From a virus, in the IMG/VR virus record IMGVR_UViG_3300042562_000746, positions 62,001 to 126,000 of that record: a stretch of DNA of 64,000 bases; one strand, written 5' to 3'. This document shows positions 9,302-35,069 of the stretch, piece after piece. The translations under genes and the position numbers were made by a program. The notes below the pieces were generated by a model. It saw nothing but the letters and a program-made list of their open reading frames with translations, ran no database searches and had not been told where the DNA came from. Within the stretch, counting starts at the first letter, position 1. The number at the start of each line of letters is the position of its first letter.

Positions 9302-9312
9302 AATCTAATTTG

Positions 9313-9397
9313 CGGAAGCTCAGGGATTCGAACCCCAGATACCTTTCAGTATGACGGTTTTCAAGACCGTTCCATTCAACCACTCTGGCAAGCTTCC
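9313..9397 (-). tRNA. tRNA-Ser(UGA)
   Basis: An 85-nt class II tRNA. Acceptor GGAAGCT/AGCTTCC with G73; anticodon stem ACGGT/ACCGT with loop CTTGAAA (anticodon TGA); long variable arm; T loop TTCGAAT. CCA is not encoded. Confidence 0.93.
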
Positions 9398-9402
9398 TAT
9401 TA

Positions 9403-9672
9403 TTAATAGATATGTGTTTCTTCGTTTCTGAAATCACTCGTATCTAATTCAAATCTATTTTGTCTTATTCTAGCTTCCTCTGCTGCTTTATACCATCTAA
9501 TCCAGGTCAAAGATGCATCAATAGGTGCCAATACCCATGCCATCATCAATACCATAATAGTATCCAATTCAGGAGAACCACCGGTAGGGTCATTTGAATA
9601 TCGTTTGTCTAAGTTTTTAAATAACTGATAGAAACAATAAATAACACAAATTACATAATAACTAACGAACAT
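9403..9672 (-). CDS. Small membrane protein, unknown
   Basis: An 89-residue protein with two hydrophobic stretches: residues 2-18 (FVSYYVICVIYCFYQLF) and about 38-58 (TIMVLMMAWVLAPIDASLTW), with a charged tail rich in Arg/Glu. This suggests an inner-membrane protein with two helices and cytoplasmic ends. Its ATG overlaps the end of the 56-residue gene at 9662-9832. No family is recognised; roles such as lysis timing or superinfection control would be guesses. Confidence 0.7.
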   Translation of the reverse strand: MFVSYYVICVIYCFYQLFKNLDKRYSNDPTGGSPELDTIMVLMMAWVLAPIDASLTWIRWYKAAEEARIRQNRFELDTSDFRNEETHIY

Positions 9673-9832
9673 AACTTTCTTTTTTAGGTTTTATTGAAAT
9701 TTTTATACTTTCTTCTTTTATATGAGGATTTACTTTTATAGTTGTTGCACCATTTTTTTTATCGTGCATAAACACATAACTATGCACTTCTTTACCTATT
9801 AATTTTGCAATATTTTCTTTTGTAATCTCCAT
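9662..9832 (-). CDS. Small Lys-rich protein (56 aa)
   Basis: A short frame from ATG (9830-9832) to TAG (9662-9664): MEITKENIAKLIGKEVHSYV and on, ending in KPKKESYVR. It is supported by the phage promoter at 9840-9871, whose -7 box ends 8 nt before the ATG, and by an 11-nt overlap with the next start (translational coupling). The N-terminal helix and basic tail suggest a nucleic-acid or protein binder, but no family is recognised. Confidence 0.65.
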   Translation of the reverse strand: MEITKENIAKLIGKEVHSYVFMHDKKNGATTIKVNPHIKEESIKISIKPKKESYVR

Positions 9833-9839
9833 TGTTCAT

Positions 9840-9871
9840 TAAATATACAAAAAATAAATTATACTACCAAA
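9840..9871 (-). promoter_or_regulatory. Promoter for the 9.8-kb small-gene/tRNA set
   Basis: Minus-strand TTTGGTA (9865-9871), 14-nt spacer, TTGTATATTTA (9840-9850). It matches the fixed-spacing phage promoter. It would drive the 56-residue gene and everything downstream (9.8 kb to about 7.7 kb), giving an almost leaderless mRNA. Confidence 0.7.
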
Positions 9872-9887
9872 TTTAGTAAAGTATTTG

Positions 9888-9961
9888 TGGGAAAGAATGG
9901 ATTTGAACCAATGACCTTCGCATTATGAGTGCGCTGCTCTAACCATCTGAGCTACATTCCC
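9888..9961 (-). tRNA. tRNA-Met(CAU), elongator-like
   Basis: A 74-nt cloverleaf: acceptor GGGAATG/CTTTCCC (one T-T mismatch), D arm AGCTCAGATGGTTAGAGC, anticodon loop CTCATAA (CAT), T loop TTCAAAT. The paired first base argues for an elongator. A lysidine-modified tRNA-Ile reading AUA cannot be excluded from the anticodon alone. Confidence 0.9.
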
Positions 9962-9963
9962 AT

Positions 9964-10011
9964 TATCGTTTAATCTAACGATAAAATCTGATATCGTTTC
10001 TTTCAACGATA
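9964..10011 (-). repeat. Two tandem copies of a TATCGTT-N6-AACGATA hairpin
   Basis: Perfect 7-bp palindromic hairpins at 9964-9983 and 9992-10011 with identical arms, different 6-nt loops and an 8-nt separator. They sit between the terminator at 10011-10042 and tRNA-Met. They could be a protein-binding operator or RNA-processing signals flanking the tRNA. Confidence 0.7.
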
Positions 10012-10042
10012 AAAAAATAAGCAGGTGTGGAATCACCTACTT
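10011..10042 (-). terminator. Rho-independent terminator
   Basis: The minus strand shows AAGTAGGTG, loop ATTCCA, CACCTGCTT (one G-T pair), then a run of T (10011-10018 on the complement). It ends the tRNA transcript coming from 10.8 kb. Its left arm contains the TAG stop of the small frame at 10037. Confidence 0.8.
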
Positions 10043-10189
10043 ATATAGTGAATGAGAAACATATGAATCTCTTGCGGCTATATCACCAAAGCCCATAAGT
10101 TTTGTAACGGCTGTGCGGTTTGTGTCCGGGCTAACCCAAGTTTCCATTTCATACTTAGCGTCTGTTCCGCCATTCTTACGAATCGTTAC
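10037..10189 (-). pseudogene. Short coding remnant or small ORF lacking a clear start
   Basis: An open frame of 50 codons ends with TAG (10037-10039) just at the terminator. It translates to a protein-like sequence (KNGGTDAKYEMETWVSPDTN, later TKLMGFGDIAARDSYVSHS). The only in-frame ATG is at 10145-10147, giving 36 residues; upstream the frame runs into tRNA-Leu(UAA). It looks like the 3' end of a gene truncated when the tRNA inserted, or a small gene with a non-standard start. The stretch 10043-10193 holds nothing else recognisable. Confidence 0.35.
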
Positions 10190-10193
10190 AATG

Positions 10194-10279
10194 TACCCCA
10201 GAACAGAATCGAACTGTCACTATCATTACTGATAACAAGATTTTAAGTCTTGCGCGTCTACCAATTTCGCCACCAGGGT
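10194..10279 (-). tRNA. tRNA-Leu(UAA)
   Basis: An 86-nt class II tRNA with acceptor ACCCTGG/CTGGGGT, D arm GCGAAATTGGTAGACGC, anticodon stem CAAGA/TCTTG with loop CTTAAAA (TAA), long variable arm and T loop TTCGATT. Confidence 0.93.
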
Positions 10280-10285
10280 ATTTCG

Positions 10286-10357
10286 TAGTCCGTCGTGGAA
10301 TCGAACCACGAATATCTCATTAGAAGTGAGAAGTTATATCCATTTAACTAACAGACC
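10286..10357 (-). tRNA. tRNA-Arg(UCU)
   Basis: 72 nt. Acceptor GGTCTGT/ACGGACT, anticodon stem TCTCA/TGAGA with loop CTTCTAA (TCT), T arm CGTGG TTCGATT CCACG. It reads AGA, a common Arg codon in this AT-rich genome. Confidence 0.92.
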
Positions 10358-10366
10358 TCTTTTATG

Positions 10367-10440
10367 CGGAATAGACGAGACTCGAACTCGCGACCTCCGC
10401 CGTGACAGGGCGGCGTTCTAACCAACTGAACTACCATTCC
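10367..10440 (-). tRNA. tRNA-Asp(GUC)
   Basis: 74 nt. Acceptor GGAATGG/CTATTCC with G73, anticodon stem CCGCC/GGCGG with loop CTGTCAC (GTC), T loop TTCGAGT. Confidence 0.93.
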
Positions 10441-10443
10441 AAT

Positions 10444-10543
10444 AAGATGAGAGATTAACTACGTCTAATTAATCAATGTATTTACTAGCTGCATCTCGAG
10501 TGAACCGGTATTACGGATGCTCACTTTCATCTACTCTCATCTT
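10444..10543 (-). other. 100-nt element closed by a perfect 10-bp inverted repeat
   Basis: The minus strand begins AAGATGAGAG and ends CTCTCATCTT, enclosing 80 nt with smaller helices (for example GCATC/GATGC). The position between tRNA-Asp and tRNA-Thr would fit a tRNA-like or small structured RNA, but no T loop or anticodon arm is visible. No ORF. Confidence 0.45.
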
Positions 10544-10545
10544 TG

Positions 10546-10618
10546 AGCCCAGAGTCAGATTCGAACTGACGACCTACTCATTACAAATGAGTTGCTCTAC
10601 CAACTGAGCTATCCAGGC
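10546..10618 (-). tRNA. tRNA-Thr(UGU)
   Basis: 73 nt. Acceptor GCCTGGA/TCTGGGC, D arm AGCTCAGTTGGTAGAGC, anticodon stem ACTCA/TGAGT with loop TTTGTAA (TGT), T loop TTCGAAT. Confidence 0.93.
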
Positions 10619-10626
10619 TTATATTG

Positions 10627-10698
10627 TACTCAGTACGGGATTCGAACCCGTATTACATCCGTGAAAGGGATGTGACCTAACCCTTAGTCGAACTGAGC
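10627..10698 (-). tRNA. tRNA-Glu(UUC)
   Basis: 72 nt. Acceptor GCTCAGT/ACTGAGT, anticodon stem ACATCC/GGATGT around CTTTCAC (TTC), T arm ACGGG TTCGAAT CCCGT. First gene after the promoter at 10817-10848; the 118 nt of leader between them holds no clear gene. Confidence 0.92.
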
Positions 10699-10816
10699 GT
10701 TAAAGGAAAGTAAAAGATGGGTGCGTGGACGATTACTTTTATGATTGGCTTTACTTTGGCTTTTAACCCCCTCACTCTACGATTTCTCATTTTGTTTCCC
10801 AATCAACCTTATATGT

Positions 10817-10848
10817 TAAATATACAATAATTTTCCCTATATACCAAA
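10817..10848 (-). promoter_or_regulatory. Promoter for the Glu-Thr-Asp-Arg-Leu tRNA set
   Basis: TTTGGTA (10842-10848), 14-nt spacer, TTGTATATTTA (10817-10827) on the minus strand. It lies in the only large gap (10699-10906) between tRNAs, which contains no other convincing feature, and it would serve the five tRNAs down to the terminator at 10011-10042. Confidence 0.75.
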
Positions 10849-10906
10849 AAATTACCCTCAAAAAAATTTTCGGACTTTTGGTAAAAAGTGAAAAAAGTAC
10901 ATTTTG

Positions 10907-10981
10907 TACCGGTAATAGGATTCGAACCTATAATTGTATGGCTTCTAAGACCACTGCGTATGCCAATTCCGCCATACCGGT
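10907..10981 (-). tRNA. tRNA-Leu(UAG), short variable loop
   Basis: 75 nt. Acceptor TACCGGT-side pairing (ACCGGTA/TACCGGT), D arm GCGGAATTGGCATACGC, anticodon loop CTTAGAA (TAG), T arm ATAGG TTCGAAT CCTAT. The variable region is only about 6 nt, unusual for a leucine tRNA, so aminoacylation identity is less certain than the anticodon. Confidence 0.85.
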
Positions 10982-10988
10982 ATTTATG

Positions 10989-11073
10989 CGGAAAGTGTGA
11001 GATTCGAACTCACGGACCTTTAACAGTCGGCAGTTTAGTAAACTGCTGGTTTCAACCACTCACCCAACTTTCC
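10989..11073 (-). tRNA. tRNA-Ser with anticodon ACU
   Basis: An 85-nt class II tRNA: acceptor GGAAAGT/ACTTTCC with G73, long variable arm, T loop TTCGAAT. The anticodon stem GCAGT/ACTGC encloses loop TTACTAA, giving ACT where GCT is normal for AGY serine codons. The first anticodon base A is rare here. Confidence 0.88.
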
Positions 11074-11077
11074 TTTG

Positions 11078-11149
11078 GGTGTAAGGACGGTATCGAACCG
11101 TCTTATCTAGCTCCACAAACTAGCGCTTCACCTTAAAGCTTCAAACACC
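11078..11149 (-). tRNA. tRNA-His(GUG)
   Basis: 72 nt including the extra G at position -1 opposite C73, the histidine identity pair. Anticodon stem CTAGT/GCTAG with loop TTGTGGA (GTG); T arm GACGG TTCGATA CCGTC. Two T-T mismatches in the acceptor. Confidence 0.88.
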
Positions 11150-11154
11150 ATTTG

Positions 11155-11224
11155 AGGTTAGTGTTAGAATCGAACTAACTCCGTAAGATTTGCAGTCCCA
11201 CCGGCCTCCACGACCTAACTAACC
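11155..11224 (-). tRNA. tRNA-Cys(GCA)
   Basis: 70 nt. Acceptor GGTTAGT/ACTAACC with U73 (cysteine discriminator), anticodon loop CTGCAAA (GCA), T arm GTTAG TTCGATT CTAAC. Confidence 0.9.
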
Positions 11225-11229
11225 ATTTG

Positions 11230-11302
11230 TAGTTTCAGTAGGATTCGAACCTACACTCTAACATCCGTAGTGTTATGTGATAATCCATTTCACTATGAAA
11301 CT
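11230..11302 (-). tRNA. tRNA-Arg(ACG)
   Basis: 73 nt. Acceptor AGTTTCA/TGAAACT, anticodon stem TAACA/TGTTA with loop CTACGGA (ACG, normally converted to inosine), T arm GTAGG TTCGAAT CCTAC. Confidence 0.9.
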
Positions 11303-11307
11303 ATTTG

Positions 11308-11378
11308 CACGCAGTGAAGGAATTGAACCCTCTCCTTTGGTTTTGGAGACCAATTGGCTGCCATAGCCTACCACGCGT
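11308..11378 (-). tRNA. tRNA-Trp(CCA)
   Basis: 71 nt. Anticodon stem TTGGT/ACCAA with loop CTCCAAA (CCA), G73, T arm GAGGG TTCAATT CCTTC. The inner two acceptor pairs (ACGCGTG/ACTGCGT) are mismatched. Confidence 0.88.
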
Positions 11379-11381
11379 TTG

Positions 11382-11454
11382 TAGGAATAACAAGATTCGA
11401 ACTTGTGACATCTAACGTATCAGATTAGCACTCTACCAGCTGAGTTATATTCCT
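11382..11454 (-). tRNA. tRNA-Ile(GAU)
   Basis: 73 nt. Acceptor AGGAATA/TATTCCT with A73, D arm AACTCAGCTGGTAGAGT, anticodon stem CTAAT/GTTAG with loop CTGATAC (GAT), T loop TTCGAAT. Confidence 0.92.
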
Positions 11455-11460
11455 ATATGT

Positions 11461-11532
11461 TGGGAATGCAGGATTCGAACCTACGGCCTCTAGCTCCCAA
11501 AGCTAGCGCGATACCGGACTACGCTAATTCCC
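11461..11532 (-). tRNA. tRNA-Pro(UGG)
   Basis: 72 nt. Acceptor GGGAATT/CATTCCC with A73, anticodon stem CTAGC/GCTAG with loop TTTGGGA (TGG), T loop TTCGAAT. Confidence 0.92.
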
Positions 11533-11538
11533 ATTTTG

Positions 11539-11610
11539 TTATCGGACCTGGACTTGAACCAAAACTAATAGAATCAAAATCTATTGTGCTGCCAATTACA
11601 CCATCCGACA
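11539..11610 (-). tRNA. tRNA-Gln(UUG)
   Basis: 72 nt. Acceptor TGTCGGA/TCCGATA, anticodon stem ATAGA/TCTAT with loop TTTTGAT (TTG), T arm TTTGG TTCAAGT CCAGG. The 80 nt up to tRNA-Gly hold nothing I recognise. Confidence 0.9.
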
Positions 11611-11690
11611 ATTTCCAATTTTGTTATCACCATTTCCTGGTGTGCTAATACACTAAACTTCCAGGCGTGTTCCGGATTGGTAACCGTTTG

Positions 11691-11763
11691 AGCAGATGAG
11701 AGGAATCGAACCTCCGTCTCCTACTTGGAAGGAAGGAGTAATGAACCATTATACGACATCTGC
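11691..11763 (-). tRNA. tRNA-Gly(UCC)
   Basis: 73 nt. Acceptor GCAGATG/CATCTGC, anticodon stem CCTTC/GTAGG (one T-T mismatch) with loop CTTCCAA (TCC), T arm GGAGG TTCGATT CCTCT. Confidence 0.9.
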
Positions 11764-11781
11764 ATATCAAATAAACAATTG

Positions 11782-11853
11782 AGGGAAGGGAGAATTACGA
11801 TATCTCGACCTGATGATTAACAGTCATCTGCTCTGCCGCTGAGCTACCATCCC
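11782..11853 (-). tRNA. tRNA-Asn(GUU) with degenerate T arm
   Basis: 72 nt. D arm AGCTCAGCGGCAGAGC and anticodon stem GATGA/TCATC with loop CTGTTAA (GTT) are normal. The T loop reads ATCGTAA instead of TTCRANN, and the acceptor GGGATGG/CCTTCCC has a mismatch. It may be decaying, or its tertiary contacts may be altered. Confidence 0.75.
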
Positions 11854-11891
11854 AAAAACAAAAAACCCCAACTAATTAAAGTCAGGGTTTT
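11854..11891 (-). terminator. Strong rho-independent terminator
   Basis: The minus strand folds AAAACCCTGACT with AGTTGGGGTTTT (12 pairs, two G-T) around loop TTAATT, followed by TTGTTTTT. It closes the 1.2-kb non-coding transcript upstream of the tRNA-Asn to tRNA-Leu group. Those tRNAs then need read-through or an unseen promoter. Confidence 0.85.
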
Positions 11892-13055
11892 CTAAAATTC
11901 TTAATATAAATCTAGCCTAACTTTACATATCTCTGCTACCCCAAATCTGATTCGGTGTGCTACAAAGTGTATGTAATGTCAATGCTTTCATTTGTTATAA
12001 ATATAATCGAATTAAAAAAGTAATCAATCTTCAAAATACGCCACGTCAAGTCATGCTCCGGTTAATACTAGCCTCGATGAATTACTCTGCTATCATTATT
12101 GGAATCGAACCAACATTAACCATTATGATAAAATAAAATAGGGATGAGAATACTCCATATTGTGAACCAGCTTTAGAAAGATTATTAGTTCCTTCCGTTT
12201 CCACTACCTTTTGAGTAGTACCAATTCAATGTGGATGATTTAAGACTATCAGTCTTTAAGTTGCCGATTACTCTCTACTTAATCATTTTCTTCAAGCCTC
12301 GCAGCCTAATTAATTCTTGCGGAATTAGAAACCTTTCGATAGAATCACAGACTTCTTGCGGAAGTATCGTGGCTAAGAACAGCTCTTAACTATGTACACA
12401 CCTTTCACCTGCAACTGGTAAACACTTAAGCTTAATTTTTAAATTGTAGTTTTTACACCGAAGTAAAAATTGAGTTTTAGTTTATAGAATTATTCAGGTA
12501 GTGGTTTACCACTAGCTCCCCCAACTTTTGGTCGAGAGAATACTAAACTACCCGATGCAATATCCCTACTGCGTTATTTTGAGTCATCTTCATTGAGTAG
12601 TTTTGGTAAACTAGTTCAAAGGATAGTAACAGCACCACCTGTACACAGTCTTATCTTACGTCCTTTCGGATGGTTTGATGTTAAGACCACTCTGATAATG
12701 AATACCGCAATGATGTAGAGGGATTAAGTCTACATTTCTTACTGATATTCTATGGGTTATTCTTATTGGTGTTCCCACCTCAATTAGAGTATCTATAATA
12801 CCCCAATTATTCTGACTGTTCCGATATAGTGTTACCCTTTCGTACAAAGCCTAAATAATATCCCACTTGCATACTTGAGTTAGTCTCTCCTTACGGGGAA
12901 AGTAACCGCAGATGTATCACTTAATACACCCACTTTATCCTTGTTTCCAAGTTTATTTACCGACCATATGCGGCCGTTATTCACTATGTAAGATAAACTT
13001 ACTATGTGAAATATTTTCAATAATGTAAAGAACTTTTTAGGTGTTACCCTATTGT
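11892..13055 (-). ncRNA. Putative giant structured non-coding RNA
   Basis: About 1.16 kb without a convincing ORF, bounded by a consensus promoter (13060-13091) and a strong terminator (11854-11891). Minus-strand hairpins are frequent. TTCAC-ATA-GTAAG/CTTAC-ATA-GTGAA is near the 5' end. TCC-GAAA-GGA lies inside GTCTTA/TAAGAC. TAGTGG-TAAA-CCACTA, an AC-UUCG-GU stem flanked by TTTTTA/TAAAAA, AAGACT-GAT-AGTCTT, and two stems sharing TTCCGCAAGAA follow. Near the 3' end is a tRNA-like acceptor/T-arm minihelix (12091-12130). Giant phage RNAs such as GOLLD and ROOL are known to lie beside tRNA genes; membership or novelty cannot be decided here. Confidence 0.65.
12091..12130 (-). other. tRNA-like acceptor/T-arm minihelix
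   Basis: The minus strand reads TATCAT, a 10-nt link, GTTGG, loop TTCGATT, CCAAT, then ATGATA. This is a T arm closed by a short acceptor-like stem with no D or anticodon arm. It sits inside the non-coding block near its 3' end. It could be part of the giant RNA or a decayed tRNA. Confidence 0.5.
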
Positions 13056-13059
13056 TTTA

Positions 13060-13091
13060 TAAATATACGATAATTTTTTCAAAGTACCAAA
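13060..13091 (-). promoter_or_regulatory. Promoter of the 1.2-kb non-coding RNA
   Basis: TTTGGTA (13085-13091), 14-nt spacer, -7 box ending TCGTATATTTA (13060-13070) on the minus strand. Transcription would begin near 13055. The downstream 1.2 kb carries RNA structure rather than a gene. Confidence 0.75.
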
Positions 13092-13164
13092 TATTTGTAA
13101 ACTTTTTTTCCTAAGATTGAATACCGAGTATCTTTCATCACCTATAAGTTCCAATCTTATAAAT

Positions 13165-13196
13165 TAAAGATACGATATGTTTTTCAATCTACCAAA
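13165..13196 (-). promoter_or_regulatory. Second promoter upstream of the non-coding RNA
   Basis: TTTGGTA (13190-13196), 14-nt spacer, TCGTATCTTTA (13165-13175). It lies about 105 nt before the 13060 promoter. Between the two is an AAGATTG/CAATCTT inverted repeat that may form a leader hairpin. Confidence 0.7.
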
Positions 13197-13216
13197 TTTC
13201 TTTGGGTTTTTTATTT

Positions 13217-13294
13217 TGTTAGGATATCCGGCTTTCTTCGGTGTCGAACACCTCACTCAATCGGTTTTATTAGTTGATGGCTTCAACCCTAACA
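13217..13294 (-). other. 78-nt structured element after tRNA-Met
   Basis: Closed by a perfect TGTTAGG/CCTAACA pair and containing GGTGT-TCG-ACACC and TTGA/TCAA hairpins. It resembles a tRNA-sized fold but has no T arm next to the 3' strand. It may be a processing or termination structure for the tmRNA/tRNA-Met transcript. Confidence 0.4.
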
Positions 13295-13298
13295 TTTG

Positions 13299-13371
13299 TT
13301 GCGATGGGAAGATTCGAACTTCCGACCTCTAGGTTATGAGCCTAGCGAGCTACCTCTGCTACTACATCGCG
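13299..13371 (-). tRNA. tRNA-Met(CAU), initiator-like
   Basis: 73 nt. Anticodon stem CTAGG/CCTAG with loop CTCATAA (CAT), T arm GGAAG TTCGAAT CTTCC. The acceptor CGCGATG/CATCGCA leaves a C1-A72 mismatch, the feature that marks bacterial initiator tRNA for formylation. The anticodon stem has only two consecutive G-C pairs rather than three. It lies 4 nt after the tmRNA 3' end. Confidence 0.85.
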
Positions 13372-13375
13372 ATAT

Positions 13376-13749
13376 TGGTGGAGATGAAGGGAGTCGAACC
13401 CTTGTCTTACAAAGTAATCATAATACCAGCATGTCACACGTTTAGAATAAAGTTTTAATCTTACTAACTTTTCAAAAGAATTGAGGCTGTATGGTTAGTA
13501 CAACGGTCCACCACTTTGTTTTGAAATAACAAAGAAAACGATTTCACATTCTATTTAATTGTCCCATGATGTGTACGGGAGTAATTATGCTGCTACAGCG
13601 TAATCGGCACCGATGAAATCCATTAAGGAATCAAAGGTCATAGTTGACATTTCGTCAGTTATTGTTTTGTGCAGTTTTAAAGAGTTTCTAGCACTTACCT
13701 CTACGTGTGATACTACAATTCTCATTGCAATCAATTCCAAAGCATCCCC
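13376..13749 (-). ncRNA. ssrA: Transfer-messenger RNA (tmRNA)
   Basis: Ribosome-rescue RNA of 374 nt. The 5' end GGGGATG pairs with the 3' CATCTCC, giving the G3-U70 pair and A73 that alanyl-tRNA synthetase recognises, and CCA is encoded. The 3' domain has AAGGG TTCGACT CCCTT; the 5' domain GCTTTGGAATTGATTGCA parallels the usual tmRNA D-like region. The tag frame ends GADYAVAA followed by TAA (13585-13587), close to the common -NYALAA end but with Val for Leu. It has its own promoter at 13770-13801. The exact resume codon is not certain. Confidence 0.93.
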
Positions 13750-27190: not shown

Positions 27191-27754
27191 TTATATTAAT
27201 CCTGTTTTTTTAGGTATGTTAAGTTGTAAATTATATACCAATGAGTATCTGTAATTTGGGAACACCGGACTTGGTACTCTACCTGTATGTGGTATACCTG
27301 CATCAAACAATACCAATCTACCTGGTTTTGGTAATACACTTTTTATTATTTCAGCATCACTTCCTATTTTATCAAAAAATACAGTTTCAGAACCCCAATT
27401 TGCATCCCAATTATCATTGCCATATATTATTGCTGTAATATTATTGAATCCGTTTATCACGCCATCATCATGAATTGAGAGGACATCTGAGTATTTGTAT
27501 GCATTTATCATAATTCTTTTACATATATATTCATTGTTTAATATTGGTAATAAAAATATTTTATTTAATATTTCATTATAAAAATTAATATTAATATCTT
27601 CATTATTTACTTTTTTGGCCATTGACCATCTTCTATCCATTCTATCTGCATTGGAATATTCGATACCCGTTAAATATAAATCAGATGACCAGAGTATATC
27701 GTACAATTTTTTAATTTCGTTTTTATCTAAAAAATTATCAATTATTTGAAACAT
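27191..27754 (-). CDS. 2OG-Fe(II) oxygenase-like protein
   Basis: A 187-residue prolyl-4-hydroxylase-type fold. Iron ligands: HDD in VLSIHDDGV (H95, D97) and distal H156 in DAGIPHTGRV; R169 in YRYSLVYNL would bind 2-oxoglutarate. The middle NDNWDANWGSETVFF is the family's DWxxxWGGxL strand. Substrate unknown. It is closely related to the 28630 protein (both have W-D-x-NWG and HDD). Confidence 0.82.
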   Translation of the reverse strand: MFQIIDNFLDKNEIKKLYDILWSSDLYLTGIEYSNADRMDRRWSMAKKVNNEDININFYNEILNKIFLLPILNNEYICKRIMINAYKYSDVLSIHDDGVINGFNNITAIIYGNDNWDANWGSETVFFDKIGSDAEIIKSVLPKPGRLVLFDAGIPHTGRVPSPVFPNYRYSLVYNLQLNIPKKTGLI

Positions 27755-27831: not shown

Positions 27832-28410
27832 TTAAATTAAGTTTATTTTTTCAATTATGTTATGTTTTGTAATTGGCATTACAATTGACCATCTTTCACC
27901 ACTTGTTATTTCTTTTATTTCGTGCAGAATTCTGCCGTGATAGGATAACGCCGTGCCTGTTTGTTTTGAAATTAAACATTCATTATTATTATCATCCCAA
28001 CATATATATTCACCCCCCGTATATGTATCATTTAATTGAATGCCTAAATTGTATCGTCTTTCTTCAAATCCATGCGATAAATCTATATGCGTTGCAAAGG
28101 CATCACCAATACCATACCTATGTAAAGTACATACTCTTACTATGTGGTTATGATTTATTTTAATATTACTTACCTCACTAAACCATAACATTAATTTATT
28201 AAACATCCACTCTGTTTCTGCTGTATTTTTTATAACATATACATTATATGATATGGCCCCGCCACTAGTTGCAACCAATTTATTGTCATCTATAAACTTA
28301 AATTTGCCTTCGGTGTTAAAATATTTAGTTAAATCGGTGGGCTGTAAGTTTACATATGATTTTATTAAAGCACACTCTTCTTCACTAAATAGTTGTTGTT
28401 GATAAATCAT
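27832..28410 (-). CDS. 2OG-Fe(II) oxygenase-like protein
   Basis: A 192-residue protein with H108-x-D110 (FATHIDLSH), distal H163 (GRILHEIKEI) and R173 (SGERWSIVM), the full 2-His-1-carboxylate plus Arg set. The strand NLGIQLNDTYTGGEYICW is typical of prolyl-4-hydroxylase-like proteins (Y-x-GGE-L). It belongs to the cluster of oxygenases around DUF2061 and the APS-kinase-like gene; 77 nt of intergenic DNA separate it from the next oxygenase. Confidence 0.82.
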   Translation of the reverse strand: MIYQQQLFSEEECALIKSYVNLQPTDLTKYFNTEGKFKFIDDNKLVATSGGAISYNVYVIKNTAETEWMFNKLMLWFSEVSNIKINHNHIVRVCTLHRYGIGDAFATHIDLSHGFEERRYNLGIQLNDTYTGGEYICWDDNNNECLISKQTGTALSYHGRILHEIKEITSGERWSIVMPITKHNIIEKINLI

Positions 28411-28414
28411 ATAT

Positions 28415-28624
28415 TTATTTTTTTAATCCGTACTTAATCCATTTGTACCAAACTCTTTCATGTAGATAATACTGAATAGGTTTGTATATTAATTCTGCTA
28501 CTCCAAATGCGGCACCTACTTTAATTGAACCACTTATCAACCACATTAATAAGAATCCAACTAAGGTACTTAAAATACGATATGAGATGGTTTTAGCAAT
28601 GTGTCTCTTTCTTTCTACTATCAT
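28415..28624 (-). CDS. DUF2061 membrane protein
   Basis: A 69-residue protein matching DUF2061: KRHIAKTISYRILSTLVGFL, then MWLISGSIKVGAAFGVAELI and KPIQYYLHERVWYKWIKYG. Two membrane helices are predicted. In Bacteroidota, DUF2061 genes often accompany sulfate-activation (APS kinase) genes, and here an APS-kinase-like gene lies 0.9 kb upstream, so a link to sulfation is suggested. Function of the family is unknown. Confidence 0.85.
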   Translation of the reverse strand: MIVERKRHIAKTISYRILSTLVGFLLMWLISGSIKVGAAFGVAELIYKPIQYYLHERVWYKWIKYGLKK

Positions 28625-28629
28625 ACTTA

Positions 28630-29154
28630 TTAGATAATTTGTTTTTCTTTTTCCAAGAAAAATTGTAAAGAGTATCTATATTCGGCATCCATATTAACCG
28701 TAGTTACGCAATGTTGTATGCCACTATATTGAAATACACCTAAATTTCGTTTTGGTTCTACTGCACGTATATCTTTATCCGGTTTATACATAAAAATACC
28801 ACCCCAGTTTGTATCCCATGTTTCATTTAAATACAAAGAAAGAGCTGCTTTTACATGAGAATCATCGTGCCATGGTATATATGATAATTTAGGCATCATA
28901 TGTACCATTATACTTGAAACTTTATATGGGATTTTTATTTCAACTTCTTTTTTTATCTTTTGAAGCAAATCAATTTCATCCGACTTAAATTCATAGATAA
29001 GTATAGGTGTAGATGCATTTATAAGTTCTTTTTGCCAGTTACCAAAACTAGTTGATAGTGGTTTTTCATTATCAGTTATTAATCCTTTTACAAATTTTTG
29101 TACTTCTAAAAATAATTCTTCTGATAGAAATGATTCATATTGTGTGATGTGCAT
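28630..29154 (-). CDS. 2OG-Fe(II) oxygenase-like protein
   Basis: A 174-residue protein: H96-D-D98 in YIPWHDDSH, distal H148 in SGIQHCVTTV and R160 in YRYSLQFFL, with the DTNWGGIFMY strand. This is the same architecture as the 27191 protein, and the two are likely paralogues from duplication. It sits 1 bp after the nucleotidyltransferase stop and 5 bp before DUF2061, so it is translated with them. Substrate unknown. Confidence 0.83.
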   Translation of the reverse strand: MHITQYESFLSEELFLEVQKFVKGLITDNEKPLSTSFGNWQKELINASTPILIYEFKSDEIDLLQKIKKEVEIKIPYKVSSIMVHMMPKLSYIPWHDDSHVKAALSLYLNETWDTNWGGIFMYKPDKDIRAVEPKRNLGVFQYSGIQHCVTTVNMDAEYRYSLQFFLEKEKQII

Positions 29155-29502
29155 TTATTTATTTTTTATAACTTGTTTACGAATTTGTGTTCCACTTATT
29201 TCTGCTATTTCAGTTGGTGGTTCATGATAGATTACATCATAACCAACCCCTCTACCATAATTTACACTTTCAATATCAGGAATAATACTAAGTAAAATCT
29301 TATCTGAATTGTTTACAAAGAATGGTTCGTTCGCTAATTCTTTTAAAACCTGTTGTGCGGTTTTAGGATTGTTCTCATCTTGTTGAACATCTCTAATTGC
29401 TACCCACACATTTTTGTTTTTTTGTAATTGTTGGGTTATTAGCCACTCATGTCCTTTGTGCCAATTTTGCCATCTACCAATGTATAATGCGTATGTTTTC
29501 AT
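29155..29502 (-). CDS. Nucleotidyltransferase (HxGH superfamily)
   Basis: A 115-residue protein with the nucleotide-binding signature GRWQNWHKGHEWLI (HKGH) near residue 8 and the C-terminal ISGTQIRKQV (ISxTxIR). This is the superfamily of NMN adenylyltransferase, cytidylyltransferase and ATP sulfurylase. The GRFQPxHxGH-like form resembles NMN adenylyltransferase, but the neighbouring APS-kinase-like gene also permits a role in sulfate or sugar activation. It is shorter than most members. Confidence 0.8.
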   Translation of the reverse strand: MKTYALYIGRWQNWHKGHEWLITQQLQKNKNVWVAIRDVQQDENNPKTAQQVLKELANEPFFVNNSDKILLSIIPDIESVNYGRGVGYDVIYHEPPTEIAEISGTQIRKQVIKNK

Positions 29503-29507
29503 ATATC

Positions 29508-29539
29508 CTAATATACAATTTATTTATTAAATTCCCAAA
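29508..29539 (-). promoter_or_regulatory. Possible internal promoter
   Basis: The minus strand has TTTGGGA (29533-29539), 14-nt spacer and TTGTATATTAG (29508-29518), one or two changes from the phage consensus, within the end of the APS-kinase-like frame. It would start transcription at the nucleotidyltransferase ATG. Confidence 0.45.
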
Positions 29540-29964
29540 TCTTTACGGAGTTTTTTAAAAGTATCGATTTCTCGCATATCCGTAGTATCTAAATCAATGT
29601 AAAATTCGGTAGGTGCTTCATAATTAGAAACATGGAAATTCTCCCTACCTCTTTCATTTGAAGTATGAACGTAAATTTCTTTTAGGTTTTCACCCATTTC
29701 TGATTTGAATTTATCTCGTTGGTCTTTGTAGGGTGAAACCAATGATACCACTACGTTGTAACCTTTGTGTTGTAAGAACTTGGCCAATGTTTGTGCATTA
29801 GTTATATTCTTTCTACGGCCTTCTTCTGAGTAATCTTTGTTTTGAAATACATCTCTAATGTCATCACCATCAATAGTGATAACTTTATGTATTAAATGAG
29901 CTTCCAGCCAATTAGCCATAGTAGTTTTTCCACTACCAGGTTGTCCTGTAAACCAATATATCAT
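29527..29964 (-). CDS. APS kinase-like P-loop kinase
   Basis: A 145-residue protein resembling adenylylsulfate kinase (CysC), which makes PAPS, the donor for sulfation: P-loop FTGQPGSGKTTMANWLE, DGDDIRDVFQ (the DGDxxR motif), YSEEGRRKNI, and EAPTEFYIDLDT. It is shorter than CysC (about 200), lacking part of the C-terminus. Related phage P-loop kinases can phosphorylate other nucleotides, so the substrate is not certain. Confidence 0.82.
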   Translation of the reverse strand: MIYWFTGQPGSGKTTMANWLEAHLIHKVITIDGDDIRDVFQNKDYSEEGRRKNITNAQTLAKFLQHKGYNVVVSLVSPYKDQRDKFKSEMGENLKEIYVHTSNERGRENFHVSNYEAPTEFYIDLDTTDMREIDTFKKLRKDLGI

Positions 29965-34259: not shown

Positions 34260-35069
34260 TTAGAAACCACCGTAATTTTTTTCATCAGATTCTGTCCAAT
34301 GTTTCGCTTTTAAAGCGTGTAAATCAATTGGCTCTCTTTTCATATGCCCACCTTTGTTAAAGTTTGCACCTTTTTTTAAGTAACCACCCAAAAAGTTCCT
34401 ACGGAATCGATTTGAGTTATTTGTCTCCGAGCCATGGATGTTGTGTGAATGTAACAAAACTACTTGACCCTTTCTGCAATGTCCTTCGATTTTTCTAAAG
34501 TCATGTCCTTCGGGCATAACACACGGTTTACCTCTTTCATTTCTCCAAAAAGTAGGATTGGTTTTTGTTCTCTCCTCATCTACTTCAATTGGTAAAATTG
34601 GTAATCTATGTGAACCTTCGTAAACCCACACTGCTCCATTTTCAGGATCGTGATTATCTAAAGCCAAAGAAGTGTTGATGATTTCGTTGTGTTTGCAACC
34701 TGTGTAAAATGCATTTTGATGCTGGTCTCTACCTAATTGTCCAGGTGGTTTAAAGTAACACCAAGTCTGCATTCCTTCTGCTTCACCTTCCATTAAATAT
34801 TCTACTGCTTCCAAAACTTTTGGATGACAAAATAGTTTTTCTAATTTAGCTGAAATTTTATGTGGATATGAAAACGGGTCCCAATCTCCCCACTCTTTAC
34901 CATCTTCGGTAGTAGTGCCGATTCTTTGTTGACGAAGTGTTTCTAACTCCGTGTTAATTTCATCACACTCTTCTTCTGTTAATAAATCTAATATTGTGAA
35001 TCCTTTGTAACGCCAATCAAATGTAATTTGTTGGACCTCTTCTTCACTAAGATGTTTTAATTTTGCCAT
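34260..35069 (-). CDS. Phytanoyl-CoA dioxygenase (PhyH)-like protein
   Basis: A 269-residue 2OG-Fe(II) oxygenase of the PhyH family: GFTILDLLTEEECDEI at the N-terminus, DQHQNAFYT at about 115-123 (the HxD position reads H117-Q-N119), GAVWVYEGSHRLPIL and LLHSHNIHGSETNNSNRFRR with distal H212 and Arg. The usual aspartate ligand is Asn here, so iron binding may differ. Preceded by the promoter at 35090-35121 and followed by a terminator, it is a stand-alone transcription unit between two morphogenesis blocks. Confidence 0.85.
   Translation of the reverse strand: MAKLKHLSEEEVQQITFDWRYKGFTILDLLTEEECDEINTELETLRQQRIGTTTEDGKEWGDWDPFSYPHKISAKLEKLFCHPKVLEAVEYLMEGEAEGMQTWCYFKPPGQLGRDQHQNAFYTGCKHNEIINTSLALDNHDPENGAVWVYEGSHRLPILPIEVDEERTKTNPTFWRNERGKPCVMPEGHDFRKIEGHCRKGQVVLLHSHNIHGSETNNSNRFRRNFLGGYLKKGANFNKGGHMKREPIDLHALKAKHWTESDEKNYGGF

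Follow-up and report, generated by a model that had tools for sequence, protein, structure and literature searches.

We describe a compact phage gene cassette, encoding a lidless APS-kinase-like protein, a mini adenylyltransferase with an HxGH motif (NT) and a small DUF2061 membrane protein, that is probably a phage-borne module for PAPS synthesis with NT as its unrecognised first enzyme. In the mechanism we put forward, NT would serve as a minimal ATP sulfurylase, distinct from both Sat and CysDN, and adenylylate inorganic sulfate (ATP + sulfate -> APS + PPi); the lidless kinase would then phosphorylate APS to yield PAPS. The DUF2061 protein may act as a membrane partner, our guess being that it serves as an anchor or helps with sulfate supply, and PAPS would feed sulfotransferases, which lie beside the cassette in related phages, for the sulfation of a putative target. 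The evidence comprises gene order, family relations, co-occurrence, gene fusions, neighbouring sulfotransferases and the lack of a known ATP sulfurylase in most carriers; the ATP sulfurylase activity of NT is what we infer from this gene context.

The window, that is, the whole stretch of 64,000 bases that was analysed and to which positions refer, spans positions 62001-126000 of a virus record of 126,250 bases (IMGVR_UViG_3300042562_000746). Five minus-strand genes lie head to tail in it, with intergenic gaps of 0-24 bases: the kinase gene (29527-29964; 145 aa), the NT gene (29155-29502; 115 aa), a 2OG-Fe(II) oxygenase gene (28630-29154), the DUF2061 gene (28415-28624; 69 aa) and a further 2OG-Fe(II) oxygenase gene (27832-28410). 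Coordinates, Pfam matches and gap lengths agree in confirming the sequence-only reading that APS-kinase-like, HxGH and DUF2061 genes are packed together here. The DUF2061 protein matches PF09834 at 62.5 bits (cut-off 23.1), and a simple window measure shows its core to be hydrophobic. The same reading had counted three oxygenases between 27832 and 29964; two do lie inside this range, matching the Pfam model 2OG-FeII_Oxy_3 at 34.2 and 40.1 bits (cut-off 27), and the third, also of the 2OG type, sits just beyond it (27191-27754). This third oxygenase matches the FlmC family clearly, though under the cut-off (79.6 vs 240 bits), and a fourth, of the PhyH type (77.3 bits in Pfam), is encoded at 34260-35069. 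Both in-range oxygenases are variable passengers, since relatives of the one between the NT and DUF2061 genes were found in just 27 of 163 sources and those of the other in 69 of 163, at varying positions. Oxygenases are thus no constant component of the cassette, and the proposal that they form one unit with kinase and NT is not supported. Elsewhere in the window (9312-13749), a tmRNA gene with its tag peptide and 19 tRNA genes make up a full phage translation kit. A direct DNA-level search yielded no phage match, and PADLOC returned no convincing defence-protein name for kinase, NT or DUF2061.

IMG/VR yielded 465 kinase relatives and 263 NT relatives under the search tool's criteria, and for each set we retrieved the loci of the 80 best. 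Among the best 80 kinase relatives, NT was present in 79 loci, DUF2061 in 79 and the whole trio in 78, so the grouping is not due to chance, and a gene-neighbour survey in related phages, suggested earlier as a check, supports the association. Among the best 80 NT relatives, 78 loci carried DUF2061 and just 34 a kinase hit. Contig counts, from which six viral loci on contigs already counted are omitted, show kinase and NT co-oriented on all 106 distinct contigs having both and at most 60 bases apart on 86; the spacing between NT and DUF2061 is likewise at most 60 bases on 112 of 149 contigs. NT and DUF2061 occur without a kinase hit in the locus on 45 of 153 distinct viral contigs, and no kinase was found in three long NT-only phage records (scanned over 100,000 of 102,380 bases in one and over the full 89,344 and 47,052 bases of the other two). 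Phages of this kind would depend on a kinase of the host, or their NT has another function. Fusion is also seen, kinase and NT forming one protein in Stenotrophomonas phages, and in PHROG family 10255 (230 aa) the first half matches the kinase and the second half NT.

Some viral loci show further arrangements. A small HAD phosphatase-like gene, whose product perhaps acts on the spent nucleotide, lies between kinase and NT in some of them (L049, 6425-6778; L055, 6447-6788). In another (L090, 2154-5435), NT and DUF2061 occur without a kinase, with genes for a peptide deformylase and a carbamoyltransferase coming next. Two phage proteins some 1,360 aa long (L267, 3944-8044; L269, 10043-14107) give a weak hit to the NT model; the former starts with a cytidylyltransferase-like domain and has no further Pfam match.

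The kinase scores over the cut-off of the Pfam APS_kinase model PF01583 (73.2 vs 21.1 bits) but below that of the APS-kinase equivalog TIGR00455 (73.6 vs 138.7 bits). Alignment to CysC, which had been proposed as a check, agreed in part: the P-loop, DGDxxR, SP and C-terminal YExP motifs are all present, whereas the lid (RDxKG...KARxGE) is absent from this phage's kinase, a difference of 4 + 14 alignment columns that include RDPKGLYKKA. In the P-loop (GQPGSGKT, kinase residues 7-14; 29923-29946, minus strand), residues 7-9 and 12-14 are invariant and residues 10 and 11 variable across the 39 rows of the kinase alignment (A2; 39 of 41 sequences, two phage fusions being omitted). The structure model (mean pLDDT 94.5) superimposes on APS kinase 7yq1 with a Z score of 20.2 and an rmsd of 1.9 A over 144 residues, and the best non-APS kinase, a gluconate kinase, reaches a Z score of 16.3. 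The lid insert is also missing from other phage kinases and from those of Marinimicrobia, marine group III and some Bacteroidota. In the kinase tree, 18 of the 19 lidless rows fall on one side of a branch with 99 SH-aLRT; the remaining row, L184, sits elsewhere on a long branch. Because the lid is absent, we file the protein only as a putative member of a lidless APS-kinase-like subfamily, in a clade separate from CysC, with which it has gene partners in common; APS phosphorylation is its predicted activity. The sequence-only reading had named as evidence against itself a kinase grouping with non-APS kinases together with no gene association in relatives, and neither was found.

NT has no convincing Pfam match and no CysD- or CysN-type match in Pfam or NCBIfam, and it matches NMN adenylyltransferase models of NCBIfam weakly and below their cut-offs (NF002243, 28.9 vs 127 bits; TIGR01527, 25.6 vs 181.2 bits). 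Three motifs stand out on the minus strand: the HxGH motif HKGH (NT residues 15-18; 29449-29460), with H15, G17 and H18 invariant in 31 sequences; GRGVGY (residues 83-88; 29239-29256), with G83, R84, G87 and Y88 invariant; and ISGTQIR (residues 102-108; 29179-29199), with R108 invariant and I102, S103 and T105 nearly so. The GRxQPxHxGH and SGTxIR motifs are held in common with NadM (TIGR01527), and hhalign aligns the two families at 99.3%. NT nevertheless differs from NadM in its own GRxVGY motif, in forming a separate group in a quick tree (100 SH-aLRT) and in the length of the IPD-to-ISGT segment that contains GRGVGY, which spans 22-26 aa in 31 of 31 NT sequences vs 48 aa in the 5 measurable of 12 NadM sequences. 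In NMN adenylyltransferases this segment helps NMN binding, and its loss would fit a small second substrate such as sulfate. These comparisons place NT in an unnamed family of adenylyltransferases, remote relatives of the NMN adenylyltransferases with a shorter middle segment; it is filed in no named family. Most phage NT sequences fall, with modest support, among marine bacterial NT in the quick tree, two long-branched fused phage forms standing apart. NT alignment A1 comprises 41 of 44 non-redundant sequences, and alignment A3 40 of 45.

The structure model of NT is fair (mean pLDDT 81.4, with residues 83-93 low), and its closest structures are phosphopantetheine and NMN adenylyltransferases, with Z scores of about 9-10. 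ATP sulfurylase 8a8g ranks 33 among its Foldseek matches; the 50 structural matches listed for the model include no ATP sulfurylase, from which no exclusion follows. Besides this match and the reaction proposed for NT, the points of likeness to Sat (PF01747) are the pairing or fusion with an APS kinase and, presumably, a distant superfamily fold. In contrast, NT has 115 aa vs about 390, lacks the QTRNPxHxxH and GRDHAG motifs and does not match PF01747. Profile kinship between the two was considered and rejected, hhalign giving 26.7% and no sensible alignment with a Sat profile made from 6 of 9 fetched Sat regions. The likeness to CysDN extends to the proposed reaction and nothing else.

The NT alignment, scanned against one genome per species, identified 72 cellular loci in many phyla, a few of which are probably phage contigs within MAGs (e.g. 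L163). A kinase hit accompanies NT in 42 of the 72 loci, and both reside in a single ORF in nine; one kinase-NT fusion (L191) has its domain order reversed, and in Dadabacteria the two genes are not adjacent. The partner kinases include full CysC proteins over the equivalog cut-off (e.g. L213, 284.6 vs 138.7 bits). In a Bacteroidia locus (L197), DUF2061 (54.9 bits) is fused to an APS kinase (170.7 bits), NT adjoins the fusion and a Sulfotransfer_3 gene (107.6 bits) lies upstream, bearing out the earlier claim that DUF2061 is tied to sulfate activation in Bacteroidota. Another locus (L227) combines CysC, NT, CysQ (261.6 vs 228.8 bits) and sulfotransferases, and in Haloarcula amylovorans (L229) a sulfotransferase gene (37.1 bits, cut-off 27) is found two genes upstream of the kinase-NT fusion. 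Four loci, from marine Bacteroidota and one MAG labelled Gammaproteobacteria (L192, L194, L200 and L204), place NT beside MetK-, AhcY- or MetH-looking genes, with CysC accompanying NT in the first three, an arrangement hinting at a possible link to methyl metabolism.

Genome-wide enzyme counts cover 48 NT genomes, from 49 loci chosen among the 72 (the other 23, mostly Dadabacteria near-copies, were left out). APS kinase is over the cut-off in 46 of these genomes and Sulfotransfer_3 in 39, against six with Sat (PF01747) and one with CysD over the cut-off. Neither Sat nor CysD was detected in 40 of the 46 NT genomes having APS kinase. The exceptions among the 48 are five genomes with both APS kinase and Sat, one with CysD and one with Sat but without APS kinase. 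Single absences prove little, because most of the genomes are MAGs or SAGs and many are incomplete. A Dadabacteria sequence labelled chromosome 1 (OX638332.1; 1,590,246 bases; G043) encodes NT, CysC (233.8 bits) and a sulfotransferase (158.4 bits), with Sat and CysD absent.

A scan of 146 haloarchaeal genomes for NT, APS kinase, Sat and CysD yielded a similar partition. NT scores are bimodal, exceeding 130 bits in eight genomes and remaining at or below 53 bits elsewhere, where the hits are partial and NadM-like. A strong APS kinase (at least 147 bits) occurs in nine of the 146, namely the eight NT genomes, where it shares an ORF with NT, and one other (G059). Sat is present in three, adjoining the APS kinase in G059 and without a strong APS kinase in G073 and G085; CysD exceeds the cut-off in none of the 146, the weak matches (at most 39 bits) that are common being taken as relatives. 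Strong haloarchaeal APS kinase is hence accompanied by NT (eight genomes) or Sat (one), never by both and never by neither, and the link of an APS kinase without NT to Sat or CysD applies to haloarchaea only and to the single genome G059.

Sulfotransferases were sought in 49 viral records carrying the cassette, this phage's own included. PF03567 was over the cut-off in seven records, PF13469 in eight and PF00685 in eight, amounting together to 17 of 49. In 12 of these 17 a sulfotransferase lies at most 568 bases from kinase or NT, compared with about 1.3 expected under uniform placement; two records with PF00685 only (L073 and L091), where coordinates put the gene some 5-6 kb away, were counted as not near. 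Assuming uniform placement, the chance figure is about 7e-12 for all 17 and 6e-7 at one record per kinase cluster, for which a sulfotransferase is near in 8 of 13. Since sulfotransferases use PAPS, the related phages that bear them plausibly make their own donor. In the phage's own 126-kb record, no sulfotransferase was detected by PF03567, PF13469 or PF00685, nor by home-made sulfotransferase models run on the window and on 60,000 of the 62,250 bases outside it. The link of an adenylyltransferase and APS kinase with a sulfotransferase user is seen in related phages and in cells, and the earlier proposal of virion or host glycans as the target is not supported, this record having yielded no sulfotransferase. 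The broader reading of the neighbourhood as one of activated sulfate is well supported by a kinase model closest to APS kinases, by the DUF2061-APS kinase fusion in Bacteroidota and by the sulfotransferase neighbours in related phages.

These observations also bear on other functions for the pair. It is unlikely that the pair generates a different 3'-phosphoadenylylated cofactor, with NT adenylylating some other small acid or phosphate compound and the APS-kinase-like enzyme adding a phosphate at the 3'-OH, a step known from CoA synthesis. An adenylyltransferase with a 3'-kinase is a recurring pair, phosphopantetheine adenylyltransferase is among the best structural matches of NT (Z 9.7) and the phage kinase is without a lid; yet many cellular partners are full-length CysC proteins scoring above the equivalog cut-off, CysQ and sulfotransferases are neighbours, and most NT genomes would otherwise have no known route to APS.

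The alternative of NAD metabolism, already contemplated in the sequence-only reading, we regard as quite improbable. Under this reading, NT, as a small NMN adenylyltransferase, would work with a kinase acting on nicotinamide riboside to restore NAD during infection as salvage or counter-defence, in what we take to resemble a NARP2-like pathway. The closest named profiles of NT are indeed NMN adenylyltransferases, NadM aligning with it as reported above, and Stenotrophomonas phage Bhz60 has a NADAR gene immediately ahead of its kinase-NT fusion (L160, 5163-6339). NT nevertheless falls far under the NMN adenylyltransferase cut-offs, its IPD-to-ISGT segment is shorter, and its cellular partners are full APS kinases, CysQ and sulfotransferases. 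All eight haloarchaeal NT genomes, moreover, carry besides NT a separate hit that is NadM-like and offers another NMN adenylyltransferase candidate. Finally, it is very unlikely that the genes are loose cargo, unrelated small metabolic genes together by happenstance that reshape host sulfur assimilation generally: phage cysC is listed, and usually read, as an assimilation gene (in the available text of PMC9789665 and PMC8190135), and the oxygenases of the cluster come and go, but the trio is near-invariant in 80 loci and gene fusions recur in unrelated cells.

Returning to PAPS synthesis, the two-step route proposed here, with linked adenylyltransferase and kinase, parallels PAPSS and the Sat-CysC fusions, and fused kinase-NT versions exist in cells and in Stenotrophomonas phages; the differences are that NT comes from another adenylyltransferase family and that the genes are separate in this phage. 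Known ATP sulfurylases are Sat and CysDN, as stated in the accessible portion of PMC10322725, and the open-licence literature, to which our search was confined (subscription papers lay outside its scope), yielded no paper on an NT-type ATP sulfurylase. On balance, we lean towards regarding the HxGH family as a third class of ATP sulfurylase that evolved independently, is of NadM-like origin and about 110 residues long, and is distributed across bacteria, archaea and phages, the phages pairing it with a lidless APS kinase to produce PAPS for sulfating the particle or the infected cell. If true, this third and tiny ATP sulfurylase would supply the missing enzyme in Marinimicrobia, Dadabacteria, marine Bacteroidota and some haloarchaea, whose genomes encode APS kinase, and in many cases sulfotransferases, but not Sat or CysDN, and would explain how many phages and microbes attach sulfate without a textbook enzyme. 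It would also recast phage cysC as a gene for sulfation rather than sulfur assimilation, and the purpose of phage sulfotransferases, whose function is called unclear in the text available from PMC10580990, would become testable.
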